Shown: positions 9,928 through 29,452 of the stretch, piece by piece | How positions within the stretch are numbered: position 1 is the stretch's first letter | Layout: each line of letters starts with the position of its first letter | From: Cladochytrium replicatum | Lineage: Eukaryota; Chytridiomycota; Chytridiomycetes; Cladochytriales; Cladochytriaceae | Length of the DNA stretch: 64,000 nt | Reading direction: 5' to 3' | Assembly: GCA_025526935.1 (NCBI GenBank) | Contig: JAHLKD010000064.1 | Span: forward strand, 186,001 to 250,000 | Program-made: the position numbers and the translations under genes | The notes under the pieces: model-generated | Database searches by the model: none | Seen by the model: the letters and a program-made list of their open reading frames with translations, nothing else | What the model was told of the DNA's origin: nothing

Positions 9928-12125
9928 TCAGCGTGCCTCATGCTTCACAGCGTCCGATTTGGATTCAGATGCCGCCGGAGCTTTGTGTTCGCCTTCGTGT
10001 TTCGCCTCGGACGGTTTTTCAGCTGGCTTTTCCGCCGTGGGCTTATCTGACGGCTTTTCCACGGCCTTCTCTGAGGGCTTTTCGGCTGCTGTAGCTTTCT
10101 CGGAAGCCTTTTCAGCTGGTTTATCAGCGGGCTTTTCCGAATTCTTCTCTACAGGCTTCTCTGCAGGCTTCTCTACAGGCTTCTCTGCAGGCTTCTCTAC
10201 AGGCTTCTCTGCAGGCTTCTCCGCAGGCTTTTCAGGCTTATCGGCAGTTTTTTCGGCCGGCTTGTCCAAATGTTTCTCGACTGCTTTCTCGGCAGGCTTT
10301 TCCGAAGGCTTCTCGCCTGCTTTCTCTGCTTGTTTCTCTGCGGCGGGCTTCTCTGCTGGCTTGTCGGCCGATTTCTCCGCGAGCTTCTCCTTCTCCGCCA
10401 CCTTTTCTGTGGGCTGTTGCTTATCTGCAGGTTTCTCGGCAGATTTTTCGGCCTGTTTCTCCGCGGGTTTCTCCGCGGGTTTTTCAGCTACTTTCTCGGC
10501 AGATTTTTCTGCAGGAGCTGCAGCCTTCTCGGCGGGCTTCTCGGCTGGCTTCTCGGCTGGCTTCTCGGCTGGCTTATCGGCTGGCTTATCGGCTGGCTTC
10601 TCGGTGGACGGCTTTTCAGTAGCTGGAGCTGCAGCCTTGTCGTTTGCTTTCTCCGCAGGTTTCGCTTCCGTGCTCTTGGAAGCATCCTGTATTCGTTGAT
10701 TTGTTGCGATTCGAAACGGATTCGATTGTATATGAAGGATGAATGGATTGTCCAGTGAGTAAATATTGGTAATATCTCTCTCACCTGTGCCGCGCTAGCA
10801 GTCTTTGCTGCATCCTTTGTTTCCGCTTTTGCCTAAAGTTTTGTTAGACGCGAAAAGCACTGTGTCAATGTCGCTGCTGTTTACCTCCGTCGGAGCTGCT
10901 GTAGCAGCCTTTTCTTGCTTATCGGCAGGCTTCGAGTCGCCAGGTTTACTTTCGCTGTGTTTCTATTGGAAAGACGTAAACTCTTGCTTCCTTTCATGGC
11001 AGAGTCTCCTTCTCTCACCGTTTCCGCCTTTTCGGCAGGTTTGTCAGAAGCACCGGGAATGGAGATGTTGTGTTGCTGTTGAGCACGAGAGTATCAGCGA
11101 ATCAAAAGGTAACAACGTTACGCTGGCAAAATCTATCTTTTTACCTTCAGAAGTGCCTTCAATTGTGCAATCTCGCTGTTCTTGGCCTAACGGCGACGCG
11201 GAAAGAACAGGGCATGTGTTAAATAGCAGTTGATCAGAGGGAGACAGGGAAGAAGGAAGTGCAGGTCAATTCCTTGACTTACTTCGATATCTTTCTTGAG
11301 TTGTGCGATCTCCTTATCATTAGCGTTCTGCGAAAAAGAAAAGAATAACGCAAAAATAAAGCAGAACTTGAGATCCAAGACCATGCGTATGTTTGGTCTG
11401 ACGCTTACCACGGGATTCTTTGACGCAGCGGCACTTCCAGGTCTGGACATCCGCGCCGGGGCCGCACCCGCCTCTTTCGCCGGTGGTGCTGCACCGTTCG
11501 CCGGAGCCGCCGCGGCAGCCGGAGCGCTCGCCTTCTTCGACGCCGATGCAGGTCGAGACTTTTGCGCGGCGGTGGCGTCCTTCGCAGGAGCAGCAGCGCT
11601 TGCAGCGTTCCCGTCCTTCTTCTCGTGATTTCCCTCAACCTTCTTCTCTGCACCATGACCACCAGCAGCGTCAGCCTTCTTCTCCGCGCCGCTGCCGCCG
11701 TGGCTAGCATCAGCTTTCTTTTCTGCGGCATCAGCGGCTTTCTTGAGGTTCGTTCTCGACCCGGCTTTAGACCCGGCGATCCCGGAAACCGGCGCAGCAG
11801 CAGCAGTATTCTTGCCGTGGTGATCCGCGCTCTTGTCCGCGAGGTTAGTCTTCGAGCCCGCTTTTGACCCTGCGGGTTTGCCCGCCACGTTTGACTTTGA
11901 GCCCATTTTTGACCCAGCGGTTTTGGAGAGTCCGGTTTTGGGAGCTGAAGATGCGGTCGCGGAGGCTTTGGCGGATCCAGGACGGTTCGGTGCACCTCCC
12001 GAGGCGTCTTTGATAGAGTGGTCGGCGACAATGGGGCCGGTCGGTGCTTTCTTTGCGTCGTGTTGTTGCTGGCCGGTTGCGGCTGCTACAGCGCCGGCCA
12101 CTGCGTTCGTGACTCCCGCTGTCAT
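9928..12125 (-). CDS. Lys/Glu/Pro/Ala-repeat protein with short coiled-coil hinge
   Basis: Seven exons keep one frame of 581 residues: 12125-11409, 11327-11283, 11186-11145, 11075-11019, 10962-10885, 10832-10785 and 10686-9928. Exon 1 encodes a Ala/Lys/Ser/Gly-rich segment with [10 protein letters not shown] units. Exons 2 and 3 encode two matching heptad pieces ([12 protein letters not shown] and [12 protein letters not shown]). Exons 4 to 7 encode repeats of E-K-P-A, including a 24-nt DNA tandem repeat near 10145-10225. No signal peptide or membrane segment is visible. The composition suggests a disordered, charged linker or filament-binding protein, but no family is recognised. Confidence 0.75.
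10145..10225. repeat. 24-nt coding tandem repeat (E-K-P-A-E-K-P-V)
   Basis: About three near-identical 24-nt units, alternating ctacaggcttct and ctgcaggcttct on the plus strand, encode E-K-P-V-E-K-P-A on the minus strand. Looser E-K-P units continue for several hundred bases on both sides. Such arrays change length by slippage. Confidence 0.8.
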
Positions 12126-21610: not shown

Positions 21611-21843
21611 TACCGATTAGTGGTCTAAAGCGATAGTACGGAAAGAACATAGAGTCAATTTTGATAGTAGAGATAGGACATATAAAAATCGATTCACTCT
21701 TAGGATGTTCCATCAATCTAACATCTCTCACTTCCAACCTTCTTACTCCTTCCACACATCATCTCATACTTTACTTGATTCCTTCTGGTTTTCTGTCCTT
21801 CATTATTTATTTCCATTTACTCAGCCATTATCCCCCAAATCCC

Positions 21844-23379
21844 ATGCCAAAGTCGTCCCTCCAAGGCGATGATCGTCCTCGCCCGCCCTCCCCGCCAGTG
21901 CTGCCTATCGAGATTGTCGATGCTATCCTGCTGCTGCTCGCCTCCTTCGCTAACAGGCCCCTCCTCGCTTTCAGGCTCTCGTCTTTCCTAAACCGCCGTC
22001 ACGTCGCTTCCAATCTCGTCGGTCTCATCATCTCGATGGATGAAGCCAGCGCCCGCGGAATCGTTGCACCACTGCAGCTGCACTTCGAGTCCTTGGCTGC
22101 TAACCGTCGCCTCTCACCCTGCACGTACTCCGCCCAAGCTCTGCACCGCGCCAGCGAAAATGGTTACATACACATCCTCGATTGGTGGAGATCCAGTGGC
22201 CTGGAGCTGCTCTACGCCGAGGACGCCGTCGACTTGGCCTGTCGTGGTGGCCACCTCAATGTCTTGCGATGGTGGGCTTCAAGTGGTCTGCAATTACGCT
22301 GGTCTCATCGGGCTTTCGACTGGGCCAGTATGAACGACCACGTCGATGTGCTGGACTGGTTGCAAAGTAACACTCTCGCTGATGCCGTCTGGACACAAGA
22401 CGCAATGGACTGGGCAAGTAAGAATGGCCACGTTCAAGTTTTAGACTGGTGGCACCGGAGCGGGCTCGAACTCAAGTGGACGGCAAGGGCCGTGGGCTGG
22501 GCCAGTAACAACGGTCACCTCCACGTTCTCGACTGGTGGCTCGCTTCCGGCCTCGAGATCCGCTATACCCACCGTGCCTTGGACTGGGCCAGCCACACTG
22601 GCAACCTGCAAATCCTTGAATGGTGGAAATCCAGCGGTCTTTCCCTCAGATGGAGCGACGATGCCATTGACTGGGCCAGCAAGAGCGCGCACATACCCGT
22701 CCTCGACTGGTGGCGTGATCTCCACCTCTGCAGCTCGCTCCCTCTGAAATGGACAAACCGCGCATTAGACTGGGCCAGCCACAACAACCACATCTCAGTC
22801 CTCAACTGGTGGCGAACTTCAGGACTCGAACTCAAGTATCACGACGACGCCCTCGATTGGGCGAGCAAGAACGGCCACCTAGCTGTTCTCCGATGGTGGA
22901 AATGCTCTTCCCTGCAGCTCCGGTATTCGCACCGCGCGATCGACTGGGCGTCCACCCACGGCCACACTGATGTCCTCGAATGGTGGTTTGCCCACAGCAA
23001 CGCACAGCTCGTCTACTCTCCCCGCGCCATCGACTGGGCGAGCAACAACGGCCACGTAGAGGTGCTCGATTGGTGGCTGGCGCACCGAAACCGTCTCGAG
23101 CTTCTATATACCCACGACGCGATGGACTGGGCGAGCCATAATGGATCCGTAGCGATCCTCGACTGGTGGAAACGAAGCGGGCTCGAGTTGAGATGGACGC
23201 ACAGGGCCATGGACTGGGCGAGCCACAATGGACACGTCCAGGTGCTGGAGTGGTGGAGGTCGCAGAGCGGCGATTGCGAGCTTAGGTATACCAACGAAGC
23301 GACGGAGTGGGCGGCGAAGAACGGCCACGCAGATGTTGTGGATTGGTGGAGAGCGAGTGGGATCTTTGAAATGGAGTGA
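21844..23379 (+). CDS. Large ankyrin-like repeat protein with D-W-A-S-x-N-G-H units
   Basis: An intronless frame of 511 residues starts at the ATG at 21844. The open frame extends upstream but without signs of coding. Residues 15-50 (L-P-I-E-I-V-D-A-I-L) resemble an F-box-type start. From about 90 to the end there are some thirteen regular units of 32 to 36 residues with consensus L-R-W-T-H-R-A-x-D-W-A-S-x-N-G-H-V-x-V-L-D-W-W-x-x-S-G-L-E. The regularity and near-identical codons suggest recent internal duplication. It is the larger paralogue of the gene at 8448-9788. A protein-binding solenoid, perhaps a ubiquitin-ligase adaptor, is inferred. Confidence 0.9.
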   Translation: MPKSSLQGDDRPRPPSPPVLPIEIVDAILLLLASFANRPLLAFRLSSFLNRRHVASNLVGLIISMDEASARGIVAPLQLHFESLAANRRLSPCTYSAQALHRASENGYIHILDWWRSSGLELLYAEDAVDLACRGGHLNVLRWWASSGLQLRWSHRAFDWASMNDHVDVLDWLQSNTLADAVWTQDAMDWASKNGHVQVLDWWHRSGLELKWTARAVGWASNNGHLHVLDWWLASGLEIRYTHRALDWASHTGNLQILEWWKSSGLSLRWSDDAIDWASKSAHIPVLDWWRDLHLCSSLPLKWTNRALDWASHNNHISVLNWWRTSGLELKYHDDALDWASKNGHLAVLRWWKCSSLQLRYSHRAIDWASTHGHTDVLEWWFAHSNAQLVYSPRAIDWASNNGHVEVLDWWLAHRNRLELLYTHDAMDWASHNGSVAILDWWKRSGLELRWTHRAMDWASHNGHVQVLEWWRSQSGDCELRYTNEATEWAAKNGHADVVDWWRASGIFEME

Positions 23380-24086: not shown

Positions 24087-25827
24087 TCACTGCAAACTGG
24101 ATGAAGCTTGTGTATCATTGTCATTTAGTTCTTCCTCTTCGTCTTCTGGGACACCGCCAGCTTTCTCTGCCATCCAGAACACACTTCGTCCGCCGTAGCT
24201 GGGTACATACTCTGTCCACTTTGACAACCCGATGAGCCCGGCTTTGGTCCACGTCTTCTCAGCGGCGTTCAAGAAGCCCTTGTAGTCCTCGTGGTCCGTG
24301 TTCATCTGCTGAGTGACCTTTCCACCAGGGACGAGCACGCGGTTGACTTGTTCGTAGAACGACGGGGTGTACAGAACGCGGGCGGCCTCGGCGGACGGGT
24401 CGGTGCAGTCGATGATGACGACGTCCGCGGAGTGCGAGGGGAGGTTGACGAGATGGTCTGGGGCGGAAGCGTGGTGCCATTGCACGCGGGGATCCGTGAA
24501 AGAGTTTGAAGAGCCCGCGGGGGCGAAGAAACGCTGGGTTGTCTTGGGGACGAGCGGGTCGATGTCGACGATCGAGATTGTCAGGTTTGGAAGCCTTGAT
24601 GCGTACGCATCGAGAAGGTACGAAGCGATCCAGCCGTCGCCGCCTCCGATCAGTTGTATGTGGAACGGCGATTGCTGGCCGGCTTGCGGCAACGCAGCTG
24701 GCGCCGAGTCAAGGACCGGGAGGAGAGCGGGGTCGACCATGTTTCTTGTGTAGATGTGGTTGTCGGACTCGCAGAACTGCACGACTCGGTCGAGGAGCAT
24801 GCAGCGTCCAAAGCTCGCGGAGTCGACGACTTCGACGCGCTGGAACTTTGAGCGTTCGTCGAAAAGGATGGTGGTGTTCCGGAGGAGGTAACAGTCGTCG
24901 TCGATGTCGTCGCCGTTGACGCAAATGTCGGCAAGGGAGTTGCCGTAGATGTCCTTGCCGCGGGGGAAGGTGAGGTCGCGCGGGTCGGTGGAGCGGACTG
25001 GAGGGGGAGCGGGAGGGAGAGTACCAGATCCTGACGGCTGGTTCATTCCAGGTTGGTTGTAAGGGACTATATAAGAAAGTCAATTGTGTCAGTAAAACAT
25101 CACCCAACCCCCGTTCTTCAAAACGAAGCTTACATTCGTCGAGATCTTCGTCCTCGTCATCCTCGTCGTCATCCTCATCCTCCTCAGCAGCGAGGCGTTC
25201 CGGCGTCAGAGGACGCTTTCCGCGGAAAGAATGGCGGTTGACACCACGTTCAACCAAAGTCTTCTTTACACTCTCAGGACGCAAGAAGCGCTCAAACATG
25301 TGCACAATCCTTGCTGGCTTGCCGAGACCGCAGGTGTACACATCGATTGCGACGAAGCGGTGCTCTGGCCAAGTATGTATGGAGACGTGCGATTCCGCCA
25401 GCAGGAAGACTGCAGTCACACCTCCGTTCTCGAATTTGTGATACGTGCTGCCGAGAAGCGACATACCGGCAGCCTTGATAGCACCTTTGATTTTGGCAAA
25501 GGAGGGGTCGTCCTCAAGAGTGGCGAGTGCTAGAGAGTTGACGCCAAACATGTCAACGACATAGTGTTTCCCTGTTGGGGGGTGTAGACTTCCAGAGGCA
25601 GAGTTTTGTGGAGAGGGGTTGTGGGCTAGTGATGACGGAGAGAGCGAGAAGGAAGAGTTTGAGTAGAGGGCGAAGAGAGCGAATGCGTTGATGATGAAAA
25701 GCAGGACAAGTAGCTGCCGTGGTCTGCGCTGGTGGAGGATCATTCCGAACGAGGATTTCCACGACGGACTGGAGAGAGAAGGGAGCGACTTGGCGTAGAC
25801 GGGCAGAGTTGAGAGTTGTGGTGCCAT
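24087..25827 (-). CDS. Membrane-anchored S-adenosylmethionine decarboxylase-spermidine synthase fusion
   Basis: Exons 25827-25134 and 25066-24087 give 557 residues. Residues 39-54 are a hydrophobic anchor preceded by Q-R-R-P-R. Residues 87-185 are a bacterial-type (SpeD/SpeH) decarboxylase. E145-S146 is the expected self-cleavage site that makes the pyruvoyl group; H151 and C166 fall at +5 and +20 from the serine, as in the Thermotoga enzyme (S63, H68, C83). An acidic linker (about 214-231) leads to a spermidine synthase domain with G-G-G-D-G at 372-376 and D-C-T-D-P at 451-455. The polyamine-pocket Y-x-E is Y-T-R, so synthase activity is less certain. The fusion could turn SAM plus putrescine into spermidine. 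Fungi normally use a different, eukaryotic-type decarboxylase. Confidence 0.9.
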
Positions 25828-26469
25828 AATTGATACGATATGATTCGCTCCGGGGTGTACCAGCAGCACTTAAGAGGGTAGCGCTACAAAGACAAATTTT
25901 GTTTGTGTTGCGGTAAAGGAAGGGTGCCAAGAATATTATATTTGAATTTACTAAAATTTGTTTTTTGTTTTTGGGGGTTGCGGGCTGCGGCAGGGCGTGA
26001 GGCACGACCAGTGGACGGCGAGCAAGGGTGCCAAGCATATCAATACAATATACAATAGTGGGCTACAATTGAACAGTGGTAGTAGCGTAGCAGTGGTAGT
26101 ATCAGCACTGCTTCTAGCGCGATCCAGCGTGTCTATCTGGCCAGGCAGTGCCCGTTTCAACTTCAGACATAAAATATTGGCTTGTGTGCCTGTGTGCTTG
26201 TGTAGTTCTCCCCGGAAGTTTCCCTGGAACGTTGTACCCCTTCCTGCCCGACACATCTACAAATGGAACCTGATCACCCGTTGGCGATCCCCCCAACCAA
26301 TCATCGTGCAGAGATAAATTTAGCTCCTGATGAAATCAGCAAATTTTGTGTGCCGCAACCCAAAGCCGCTGTTCTCGGATTCTCAAAAGTCTCAGGAAGC
26401 TCTCACGGAAAGCTGAAGGAACATTTTTTGGAGCTGTAGCTGTAGCTGTAGCATTCTTCATCCGTCAGC
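25828..26469. promoter_or_regulatory. Shared intergenic region of the divergent polyamine-domain pair
   Basis: About 640 nt between two ATGs facing away from each other. It contains A/T-rich patches near 25930-25975 and 26040-26060 and no coding frame with recognisable features. A bidirectional promoter is inferred from geometry alone. Confidence 0.5.
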
Positions 26470-29452
26470 ATGCTACAGATTGCTCTGAAGGCAGTCGTGC
26501 GCCGCTCATTCCTCCTTGTCCTTGCTCTCGTCACTCTCGTCACGGTTTCGCTCTCCTTGCGAGCATACTCCCAGTCTGACTTGCAATCCGAGCCCACATC
26601 TGTACAGCCTATTCTCAACCACAATGCTGCTCAACACCACCAACCGCCGCCTCCGACACAACCAAGTCCAGTTCGGGCCGCCGCTGCCGTTCGTGTGAGC
26701 CCTGCAGTCCAGCAGCAAAGTCCAGAATCGAAACACCGAACCGACGATAAACTTCCTCACTTCCTTGCTTCGGGATCAGCTGCCTTCGACACTACAATCC
26801 ACGAGACAAAGTTTTCTCTGGTCCAGTCGGATTCGTCATCTCCGTACGGGATATGCCTAATGACTGCGTCGCCTCCGTCTGCGTCTCCGACGCTCCGTTC
26901 GTGCGCCAACGACGAGCCAATCAACGCCCAAACCCTTGTGCATCCCGCCATGCTTCTACACCCCTTCCCGCGCCGTACCCTCGTGCTCGGCTTTCCCGAA
27001 GGTTCCGTATCCAAAGAACTCCTACGACACTTTACTCTCTCCTCGATCTCATGGCTCCCGTGGAGCTCTGCAGAGTCTGTAGGACAGACGGATAATACGG
27101 GACGCCCGTGGAAAGAATTCGAAAAGATCGCCTCGCGCTTTTCCGCCCCCTACATTAAAGCATCAGGCGAGCACACGGACTATGACGATCTGCTTGACCG
27201 GCTATCCGTCCCCGAAGCCGCTTCAACGTCCTCGTACCTCAGCGCGTCTACTACCGCGACCTTTGATGTAATCTTCATCGACAACGATGCCGTTCAGTTC
27301 CTCCCGCTTGCAAAATCCAAGCTTCGTGCCGGCGGGATTATCGCTATTCCGGGAGGACCCGCAACTTTTTCGTCCAACGGCTTCAAGCTCAATATTGAGA
27401 ATTCCGACTCTCCCGTTCTTGGAGTCGACAATGCACACCACGCAATTTTCTCGACGCTCGTTGCAAGCTTCAAACACGTCCACACCGCTGCTGCCTTCAG
27501 GCCTTCAAAGTCAGAGCTATGGACATACCATTACGCAACAGACTCGGATGCACTTCCCAACCCCACCATGGTGAGTTTTTGAAACATGATTCACATTAAA
27601 TGTATTAATCTTCCGGTATCAGCTCCACCCTCAACTGGTCGACATCTGGATTGGACGCCGCATTACTGGAGACTTGTCGCAATACGATGGCATCACCCAC
27701 GCAAATGCGTTCAGCATCCCCGCATGGCTTCGAGCAGAACTCAAGCACTCGACCTATGTTGGCACCGCCAAGGCTGCGTCCAACCCCGCATCGAATGCGC
27801 AGGCTCCCGCCCGTTCGCACAAAGACGACGACGATGACGACGGTGAAGATAACGAAGAGTACTCCGTGCGGATGTTCGGTCAGACAGTGCTTGCCACGCC
27901 TGACGACATCGTGTACGAACCATTCACGCACCTTGTACCGGACGATCTTCCAGCAATCACTCCTCTCGGCGGCAGCTTCTTCAGCTACGACTTTTTTGGA
28001 TGTTCCCCATCCAAACTCTTGAATGCGACGCTCTTGGAAGAAGCGCTTCGTCAAGGGCTGACTTTTGCTCATGCTTCGGGCATTCACATCTCTCGCAACG
28101 AATATGCGTCCCTTGCGAACGTGACTCTGCTCACGCCTGACGATCTCGAGCCGGAGGATGACGGTGACGAGACTGGTTGGGATCGCGGCCGTCTTGGCGA
28201 GAACGCTCACTTCAACGGCGCTCGTCTGCCCAACGGAGCATTAGGGCGAAAGCCAGCGAAACATCCAGCTGTCTTTTTGACTGCATCGTTTGACGGAGGA
28301 GTCCTGACCGTCGCCGCCTTCCCTTCATTCCGATACCTTGCCGTGGACGCCATGAACGTCAATGCGTGGGTCGCCATCGACGAGGCAGTTGGGTACATGG
28401 GAGACGTTGCGGACTCGTCCAAGACCACCGGAGCGATGCGACGACGTGGTGCAAACATTGAAGGGGGGCGTTTGTTCGATGATGTTGAAGATGGCGACGA
28501 CGAGGACGAAAACGCCCATTCCAACGATAGGGACACTTTCGAGGAGGACAGACTCGACGACCTTCTGGAGTCCAAGTCGGCAGACCACGCCCGTCTCCAA
28601 CGCGTTTCGCCCAAGGACGCCTCTCACAAAGAGCTGAAGCGACTGTGGCGTCTTCTCGTCGACACCTCCACGCATTCCTCCCCCGCGTCCACACGCTTCG
28701 TGCACAGCGCAGCATACACCTTCACGGGAACGTACTGGACTCACCCTCTGATCGCTGCCCGCAGAGAAGGCGCGACCGCCGGCACCGGACAGTTCGCCAC
28801 AGGCCTGATCAAGCAAGGCGAGCCCGTCTTTACCGGCTACATCGAAGAGTCCCTCCGCGCCGGCTCGCTCGAGCTCGTCCGGATCCCGACATGGAAGTCC
28901 GAGTTCCTCGGCCACATGTCCGAGATGGTCGAAGTCGACGTGTACGTCGCCCCCATGCTCTACGAGACCGACGTGTCGTTCTACACTAACCACGGCTGCG
29001 ACCCGACGGTCTGGTACGGCGGCAACCACGACCACGCCGCAGTGAACACGCTCCATGTGCAGCATGCGGACGGGTACACGCCCGAAACGCTCGCGCATTA
29101 CGGGCCCTATGACATCATGACGGCACGGAAGGACATGAACGAGGGCGATGAGGTGACATATGACTATGCTACCGTCGACGCTGACGGGCCTGGTTCAGAC
29201 TTTGTGTGTGGTTGCGGGTCGCCGATCTGCAGACATAAAGTCACGCACAAAGACTGGGACACGCACCCGGAGCTCGTGGAGCGGTACGGGATCGAGCATT
29301 TCATGCCGCATATTTCAAAGCTCATTCGAGGGAAAGAGAGGAGAGGGAACAGAGCTGGGTTGGAGAAGCGGGGTGCAGTTGAGGGAGGCTTTGTAAGGGC
29401 TGCATTCAGGCGCAGAGCGGTGAAAGCCAAGGGTAAAAAGAGGAGGAGCTGA
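26470..29452 (+). CDS. Membrane-anchored SET-domain protein with degenerate spermidine synthase and SAM decarboxylase domains
   Basis: Exons 26470-27570 and 27623-29452 give 976 residues. Residues 13-30 form an anchor after V-V-R-R. Residues 100-350 resemble a spermidine synthase (Y-G-I-C-L-M, L-V-H-P-A-M-L-L-H-P-F-P) but the glycine loop is L-G-F-P-E-G. After an acidic run (435-446), residues 482-625 match the decarboxylase of the neighbour (S-Y-D-F-F-G, then A-V-F-L-T-A-S ... F-R-Y-L-A-V-D), but the cleavage Glu-Ser, His and Cys are gone. A SET domain follows at about 752-884, with G-T-G-Q-F-A, N-H-G-C-D-P (823-828) and T-Y-D-Y (879-882), then a post-SET C-x-C-x4-C (896, 898, 903). It is probably a lysine methyltransferase; substrate unknown. 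Confidence 0.88.

Follow-up and report, generated by a model that had tools for sequence, protein, structure and literature searches.

Within a 64,000-nucleotide stretch of the genome of the fungus Cladochytrium replicatum (GCA_025526935.1, contig JAHLKD010000064.1, positions 186,001-250,000; hereafter the window), positions 24087..29452 carry two divergently transcribed genes, designated A and B, that would each join an N-terminal membrane anchor to two polyamine-enzyme folds. Gene A is predicted to encode an anchor, a class-1b AdoMet decarboxylase (AdoMetDC) and an aminopropyltransferase (APT), neither of which has lost its motif residues, and gene B appears to encode an anchor followed by APT-like, AdoMetDC-like and SET/post-SET domains, in which both polyamine-enzyme sites are degraded and the SET motifs intact. 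The reading preferred here, to which we assign a probability of roughly 0.4, is that A makes decarboxylated S-adenosylmethionine (SAM) locally and aminopropylates an amine, while B, a SET methyltransferase built onto a dead scaffold, works on that amine too or on a protein, or else regulates A. The genome searched comprises 50.5 Mb in 198 contigs, the window being C64:186001-250000; an IFT57 match and chitin synthase matches at 22 places in it would fit a flagellated fungus.

Gene A (24087..25827, minus strand; 557 residues) is read as exon 1 at 25827-25134, an intron at 25133-25067 and exon 2 at 25066-24087 including the stop codon, and gene B (26470..29452, plus strand; 976 residues) as exon 1 at 26470-27570, an intron at 27571-27622 and exon 2 at 27623-29452, again with the stop codon; the splice sites are predicted from GT..AG and open frames. 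The coordinates of the head-to-head pair in an earlier account of this DNA (the original prediction) hold, the start codons lying 642 nt apart (25828..26469; there described as a 640-nt region). The gene pair is confirmed as real and as more than chance, since both genes have diverged, intron-bearing paralogues (A′ and B′) in which the domains are far better kept than the N-termini and linkers. A scan of the 642-nt region for bacterial-type promoters gave no signal above that of its shuffles, the bacterial models being uninformative for a fungus.

The identity of gene A is indicated by matches to both of its halves (all features on the minus strand). Residues 88-195 (25243..25566) match AdoMet_dc (PF02675) with an E of 1.3e-26 (93.4 bits; cut-off 25) and pass TIGR03330 (99.6 bits; cut-off 75.65). 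As had been claimed, the decarboxylase residues are kept: alignment to the solved class-1b enzymes 2iii and 1tlu places the ESH...IHTWPE...YTCG residues in register, with ESHVSIHTWPE at 145 and YTCG at 164, which contain what we take to be the Glu-Ser cleavage site and the active-site His and Cys. An acidic linker, read from the sequence at about residues 215-231 (25135..25185), precedes the APT domain (residues 298-533; 24162..24869), which scores over the Pfam cut-off (Spermine_synt_N, E 1.2e-9; Spermine_synth, E 2.6e-15) and retains GGGDG at 372, DIDP at 399 and DCTDP at 451.

A bacterial origin of gene A is likely, given that the speD-speE order in alphaproteobacterial plasmids (Microvirga, Azospirillum), in which speD and speE share a 4-base overlap, is that of the domains in A, and that a DNHIY stretch is common to Microvirga SpeE, A and A′. 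The APT tree gives A no placement, the branch leading to it measuring about 3 changes per column and several further rows being long. Descent of the APT domain as a copy of the fungus's own spermidine synthase was unsupported, the A/A′ pair and the pair of own synthases (100 percent bootstrap each) not joining; nor was there support for an animal-type spermine synthase, since 3c6k matches the A profile at E 0.44 and the AdoMetDC site of A is retained.

Relatives were also sought in collections of prokaryotes, viruses and plasmids. Among genome contigs, neither the 590 stretches returned for A nor the 38 returned for its AdoMetDC domain were related, each scan using two short peptide patterns and not showing absence. 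Viral contigs gave 93 relatives of A among 99 stretches; in the 80 that were retained, no open reading frame (ORF) matched both AdoMetDC and APT at E 1e-3, seven ORFs matched the APT of A, and none matched the parts of B. At seven of these 80 loci (L037, L054, L057, L063, L078, L092 and L097), the ORF that matches APT is distinct from the AdoMetDC match and comes after it. None of the 47 stretches returned for the APT domain of A or of the 151 returned for exon 1 of B was related, and the SET domain of B had one among 49 stretches. Plasmid searches returned 47 records for A, none with 80 percent coverage, and a single record for B, matched by SET only.

Gene B has its parts in the opposite order (all on the plus strand), as originally described. 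The APT-like domain spans about residues 95-410 across the intron (26752..27751), and the best solved match of exon 1 is thermospermine synthase 6bq2, at E 5.7e-11, or 7.3e-13 once the paralogue is added. The original prediction that B has lost its decarboxylase residues stands, with the correction that the APT active site is lost as well: in both B and B′ GFPEG replaces the GGGDG/GGGEG loop, and the catalytic loop is shortened, the DxxDP motif in B having disappeared. The AdoMetDC-like domain (about residues 483-640, with an acidic insert; 27968..28441), which does not retain the catalytic E-S, H and C positions, is the weakest of the domain calls. Its only Pfam match is AdoMet_dc at E 0.031, and against a profile of 72 AdoMetDC sequences hhalign gave E 2e-6 for the first half (none of 200 column shuffles as high), no significance for the second half alone (7 of 200 as high) and E 1.1e-5 for both halves together with the loop removed (none of 200 as high). 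NCBIfam and PHROGs scans of exon 2 of B returned no match, and a PHROGs scan of the second part of B′ gave phrog_23913, of no assigned function, at E 0.12. That the two genes share two folds is supported, tentatively so for the AdoMetDC fold of B, and does not imply that either gene was copied from its neighbour; derivation of B from A was unsupported, the two APT domains aligning with an hhalign probability of 0.8 percent and E 0.068 (two-sequence profiles), with no detectable relation beyond the family.

The SET domain claimed for B, with its C-terminal extension, occupies 28703..29329. The GxG, NHxC and ExxxDY motifs (AGTGQ at residue 753, NHGC at 823 and EVTYDY at 877), together with the post-SET CxC...C cysteines (CGCGSPIC starting at 896; 29207..29230), are present in B, and B′ likewise has intact SET motifs and cysteines; we presume that these motifs have their customary roles here. 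Over the aligned part, SET and extension are 39 percent identical to a stand-alone SET protein on a plasmid of Streptomyces sp. NBC_01445. The Streptomyces protein lies at L109 5749-6255, in a record without annotation. A profile built from B, B′ and the Streptomyces SET matched 52 chains, with histone methyltransferases best (7u5v, E 9.3e-8; EHMT2, E 1.6e-6).

Both proteins would be anchored, in agreement with the original prediction. One N-terminal hydrophobic segment each was called, with a hydropathy script rather than a dedicated predictor, in A, A′, B and B′ (B′ being followed to its frameshift, described below), and each is preceded by three to six lysine or arginine residues and no aspartate or glutamate. 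The segment of A covers residues 39-57 (25657..25713, minus strand; five basic and no acidic residues upstream) and that of B residues 14-32 (26509..26565, plus strand; three and none), with 19-residue mean hydropathies of 2.14 and 2.23, respectively, within a range of 2.0-2.58 across the four proteins. Such segments fit type II anchors or signal peptides.

PF02675 is detected at two places in the genome, A and A′, and a genome search with exon 2 of B found only itself and B′, in two pieces. A′ (C114:2400-4134), close to the contig end, has an intact frame, and its APT domain is interrupted by an additional, second intron. B′ (C102:156093-159053) is interrupted by a frameshift near C102:157858, beyond which the SET domain is still identical to that of B at 178 of 208 positions, so the shift would be either recent or an assembly error. 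Intron positions match between B and B′ and, within one residue, between A and A′. Identity of A to A′ is 377/539 residues overall (AdoMetDC 90/121, APT 225/277, N-terminus 35/80), and that of B to B′ 345/540 ahead of the frameshift and 290/378 past it (APT 224/305, AdoMetDC-like halves 43/66 and 36/47). The SET domain and the dead APT core (46/53) appear to be the best-conserved parts of B and both to be under constraint, as their identity contrasts with 31/84 in the N-terminus. Across the SET, APT and A-AdoMetDC domains, dN (nonsynonymous divergence) is 0.08-0.19 and dS (synonymous divergence) near or past saturation, and therefore the age of the duplication cannot be given. When the whole window was compared with the C114 and C102 stretches by tblastx, 70 of 72 matching pieces fell within A or B and the other two were 28-bit pieces elsewhere; no other gene was seen to be shared between the window and these stretches.

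Genes A and B appear to be additions to an ordinary polyamine pathway, since eukaryotic AdoMetDC (PF01536) is matched in five pieces on C7 and weakly at C72, and spermidine synthases with the usual motifs at C35 and C59. The latter two genes are near-identical, suggesting wider duplication in the genome. Two weak APT places (C23:167496-167696 and C10:22394-22585) may correspond to the fusions of a membrane protein with APT that the available sections of PMC12803844 mention for fungi.

In the preferred reading, the class-1b AdoMetDC of A would cleave itself to the pyruvoyl enzyme and convert SAM to decarboxylated SAM, from which the APT domain would transfer an aminopropyl group to an amine, be it putrescine, spermidine, a polyamine longer than these or the side chain of a lysine. 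B would be a membrane-anchored SET methyltransferase, the first two thirds of which, a dead APT plus a dead AdoMetDC, could serve as a scaffold that binds a polyamine-type ligand, dimerizes or pairs with A; it would methylate the amine or protein target of A, or regulate A. Both proteins would work at a membrane inside the cell, separately from the usual polyamine pathway of the cytosol. The catalytic action of A, methylation by B, membrane sidedness and A-B contact of any kind are our inferences, as is coupling of the two, which comes from their layout only. If this is correct, a single membrane would be where SAM is directed into decarboxylation, aminopropyl transfer and methyl transfer, B would count as a pseudo-enzyme in which the dead core matches the live domain in strength of conservation, and the pair would bear on how eukaryotes make long-chain or methylated polyamines and lysine modifications. 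A more ambitious extension holds that A and B form an anchored two-protein fungal machine in the endomembrane system, in which one amine, free or on protein lysines, is aminopropylated and then methylated by SET with the dead body as substrate cradle, a counterpart of the proposed diatom long-chain-polyamine machinery; this we regard as doubtful, a conjecture that would probably fail.

Several findings weigh against the preferred reading. A′ and B′ are on separate contigs (C114 and C102), and tblastn found neither A in the 29 kb around B′ nor B in the 20 kb around A′. Both genes are retained in duplicate and their adjacency is not, so that at least one set either does without the shared 642-nt control region or has lost it; the coupling of A to B in the original prediction stays conjectural, its account of domains, order, anchors, residues and SET being sustained, and any joint working of A and B is suggested by adjacency in one of two sets. 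The APT domain of A scores under both SpeE equivalog cut-offs (116.6 against 260 bits and 84.6 against 249.55), and its substrate may accordingly not be putrescine. A whole-protein Pfam scan of B gave SET as the sole family, at 17.7 bits against a cut-off of 22.4, and the SET region alone falls just below it (22.3 bits, E 1.8e-4; 19.7 bits in B′). The anchors could be mitochondrial presequences plus a membrane segment, and the frameshift in B′ may mean that one B copy is defunct or was wrongly assembled. The unlinked paralogues, and the preference of the SET profile for the histone methyltransferases 7u5v and EHMT2, are what would be expected if B were a protein lysine methyltransferase unrelated to polyamines, its dead halves binding a protein target and its position reflecting the chance landing of two horizontally acquired genes. 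This explanation is unlikely, albeit one to be reckoned with, as it would be a strange accident for one chain to combine APT and AdoMetDC folds while its neighbouring gene has both of them as well.

It is somewhat less probable again that B behaves like a prozyme, its dead APT-AdoMetDC half complexing with A to switch it on or off, with SET adding methyl-based control and the complex sensing the level of SAM, decarboxylated SAM or polyamine. Catalytically dead partners have precedents in the trypanosome AdoMetDC, which is activated by a dead paralogue (PMC5201418, in part), and in animal spermine synthase, said in the accessible portion of PMC12803844 to retain a dead AdoMetDC domain for dimerization, but no paralogy between B and A is detectable and the AdoMetDC similarity of B is weak. 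We consider it improbable that SET methylates a small molecule, for example a nitrogen of a polyamine, or methionine, which would yield S-methylmethionine. The latter is the reaction of BurB, a SET enzyme with methionine as its substrate according to the excerpted text of PMC12542666, and the profile of B, B′ and the Streptomyces SET does match its structure 9l4t at E 3.6e-4, but over 42 profile positions and ranking below 20 histone methyltransferase chains. Very improbable is that the gene models are wrong, or the locus bacterial contamination or decaying: the B′ frameshift, the closeness of SET and AdoMetDC of B to the limits of detection and the predicted nature of the models would allow it, but the matching introns in A/A′ and B/B′, the low dN beside saturated dS and the intact frames of A, A′ and B speak against it.

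Two neighbours in the window may be recorded. A spliced-looking gene at 9959-12120 (minus strand) ends in a long PAEK-type lysine-proline repeat of 12-base tandem units and is, by eye, without an N-terminal signal. Downstream of gene A, at 21637-23376 (plus strand), is an open frame of 580 codons in which the motif WW..SGL...A.DWAS.NGH recurs many times, in a manner that to the eye resembles ankyrin repeats.

Each half of the locus has partial counterparts among known systems. Bacterial AdoMetDC-APT fusions, from Ca. Pelagibacter, deltaproteobacteria and Ca. Krumholzibacteria, are active according to the available parts of PMC11107197 and PMC12803844 and, as described there, resemble gene A in having an N-terminal class-1b AdoMetDC with catalytic residues and a C-terminal APT; gene A differs in being eukaryotic and in having introns, a membrane anchor and an acidic linker. 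Animal spermine synthase (PDB 3c6k) begins with a dead AdoMetDC domain, which a live APT follows (PMC12803844, in extract), and is like B in that a dead AdoMetDC-derived domain adjoins an APT domain, whereas in B the order is reversed, the APT is dead too and SET is added. The trypanosomatid prozyme, as far as the consulted portion of PMC5201418 describes it, would share with B the role of dead partner to a live AdoMetDC, but belongs to another AdoMetDC class; B is not detectably a paralogue of A and carries SET in addition. Unlike B, the Streptomyces SET protein is stand-alone, unanchored in the stretch read, and without APT or AdoMetDC. The fungal section of PMC12803844 reports that some fungi, chytrids among them, have APT fused to a membrane protein, and names neither an AdoMetDC-APT fusion nor SET. 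A literature search whose coverage mostly excluded subscription journals found no description of an APT-AdoMetDC-SET protein or of such a pair. What appears new in the literature as searched is an AdoMetDC-APT fusion in a fungus and a fusion joined to SET, the bacterial fusions and the proposed diatom ones being known.

The closest published parallel is probably that of the diatoms, whose AdoMetDC-APT fusions, uncharacterized, have been proposed to serve long-chain polyamine synthesis (passages of PMC6356823 and PMC12803844). Diatom SET-domain proteins are believed to have biosilica proteins or polyamines as their targets (PMC11554505, citing Nemoto 2020); the passage concerned mentions no polyamine-enzyme fusion, and the likeness to B is by description only. 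Going by the same partial accounts, and likened by description, the diatom fusions agree with gene A in being eukaryotic, with a bacterially derived AdoMetDC-APT beside an ordinary pathway, and differ in that the organism here is a fungus, in which a second fusion, dead apart from its SET domain, provides the methyltransferase-like part. A FEBS Lett 2011 diatom paper reportedly proposes methylation, going by its title in a reference list.

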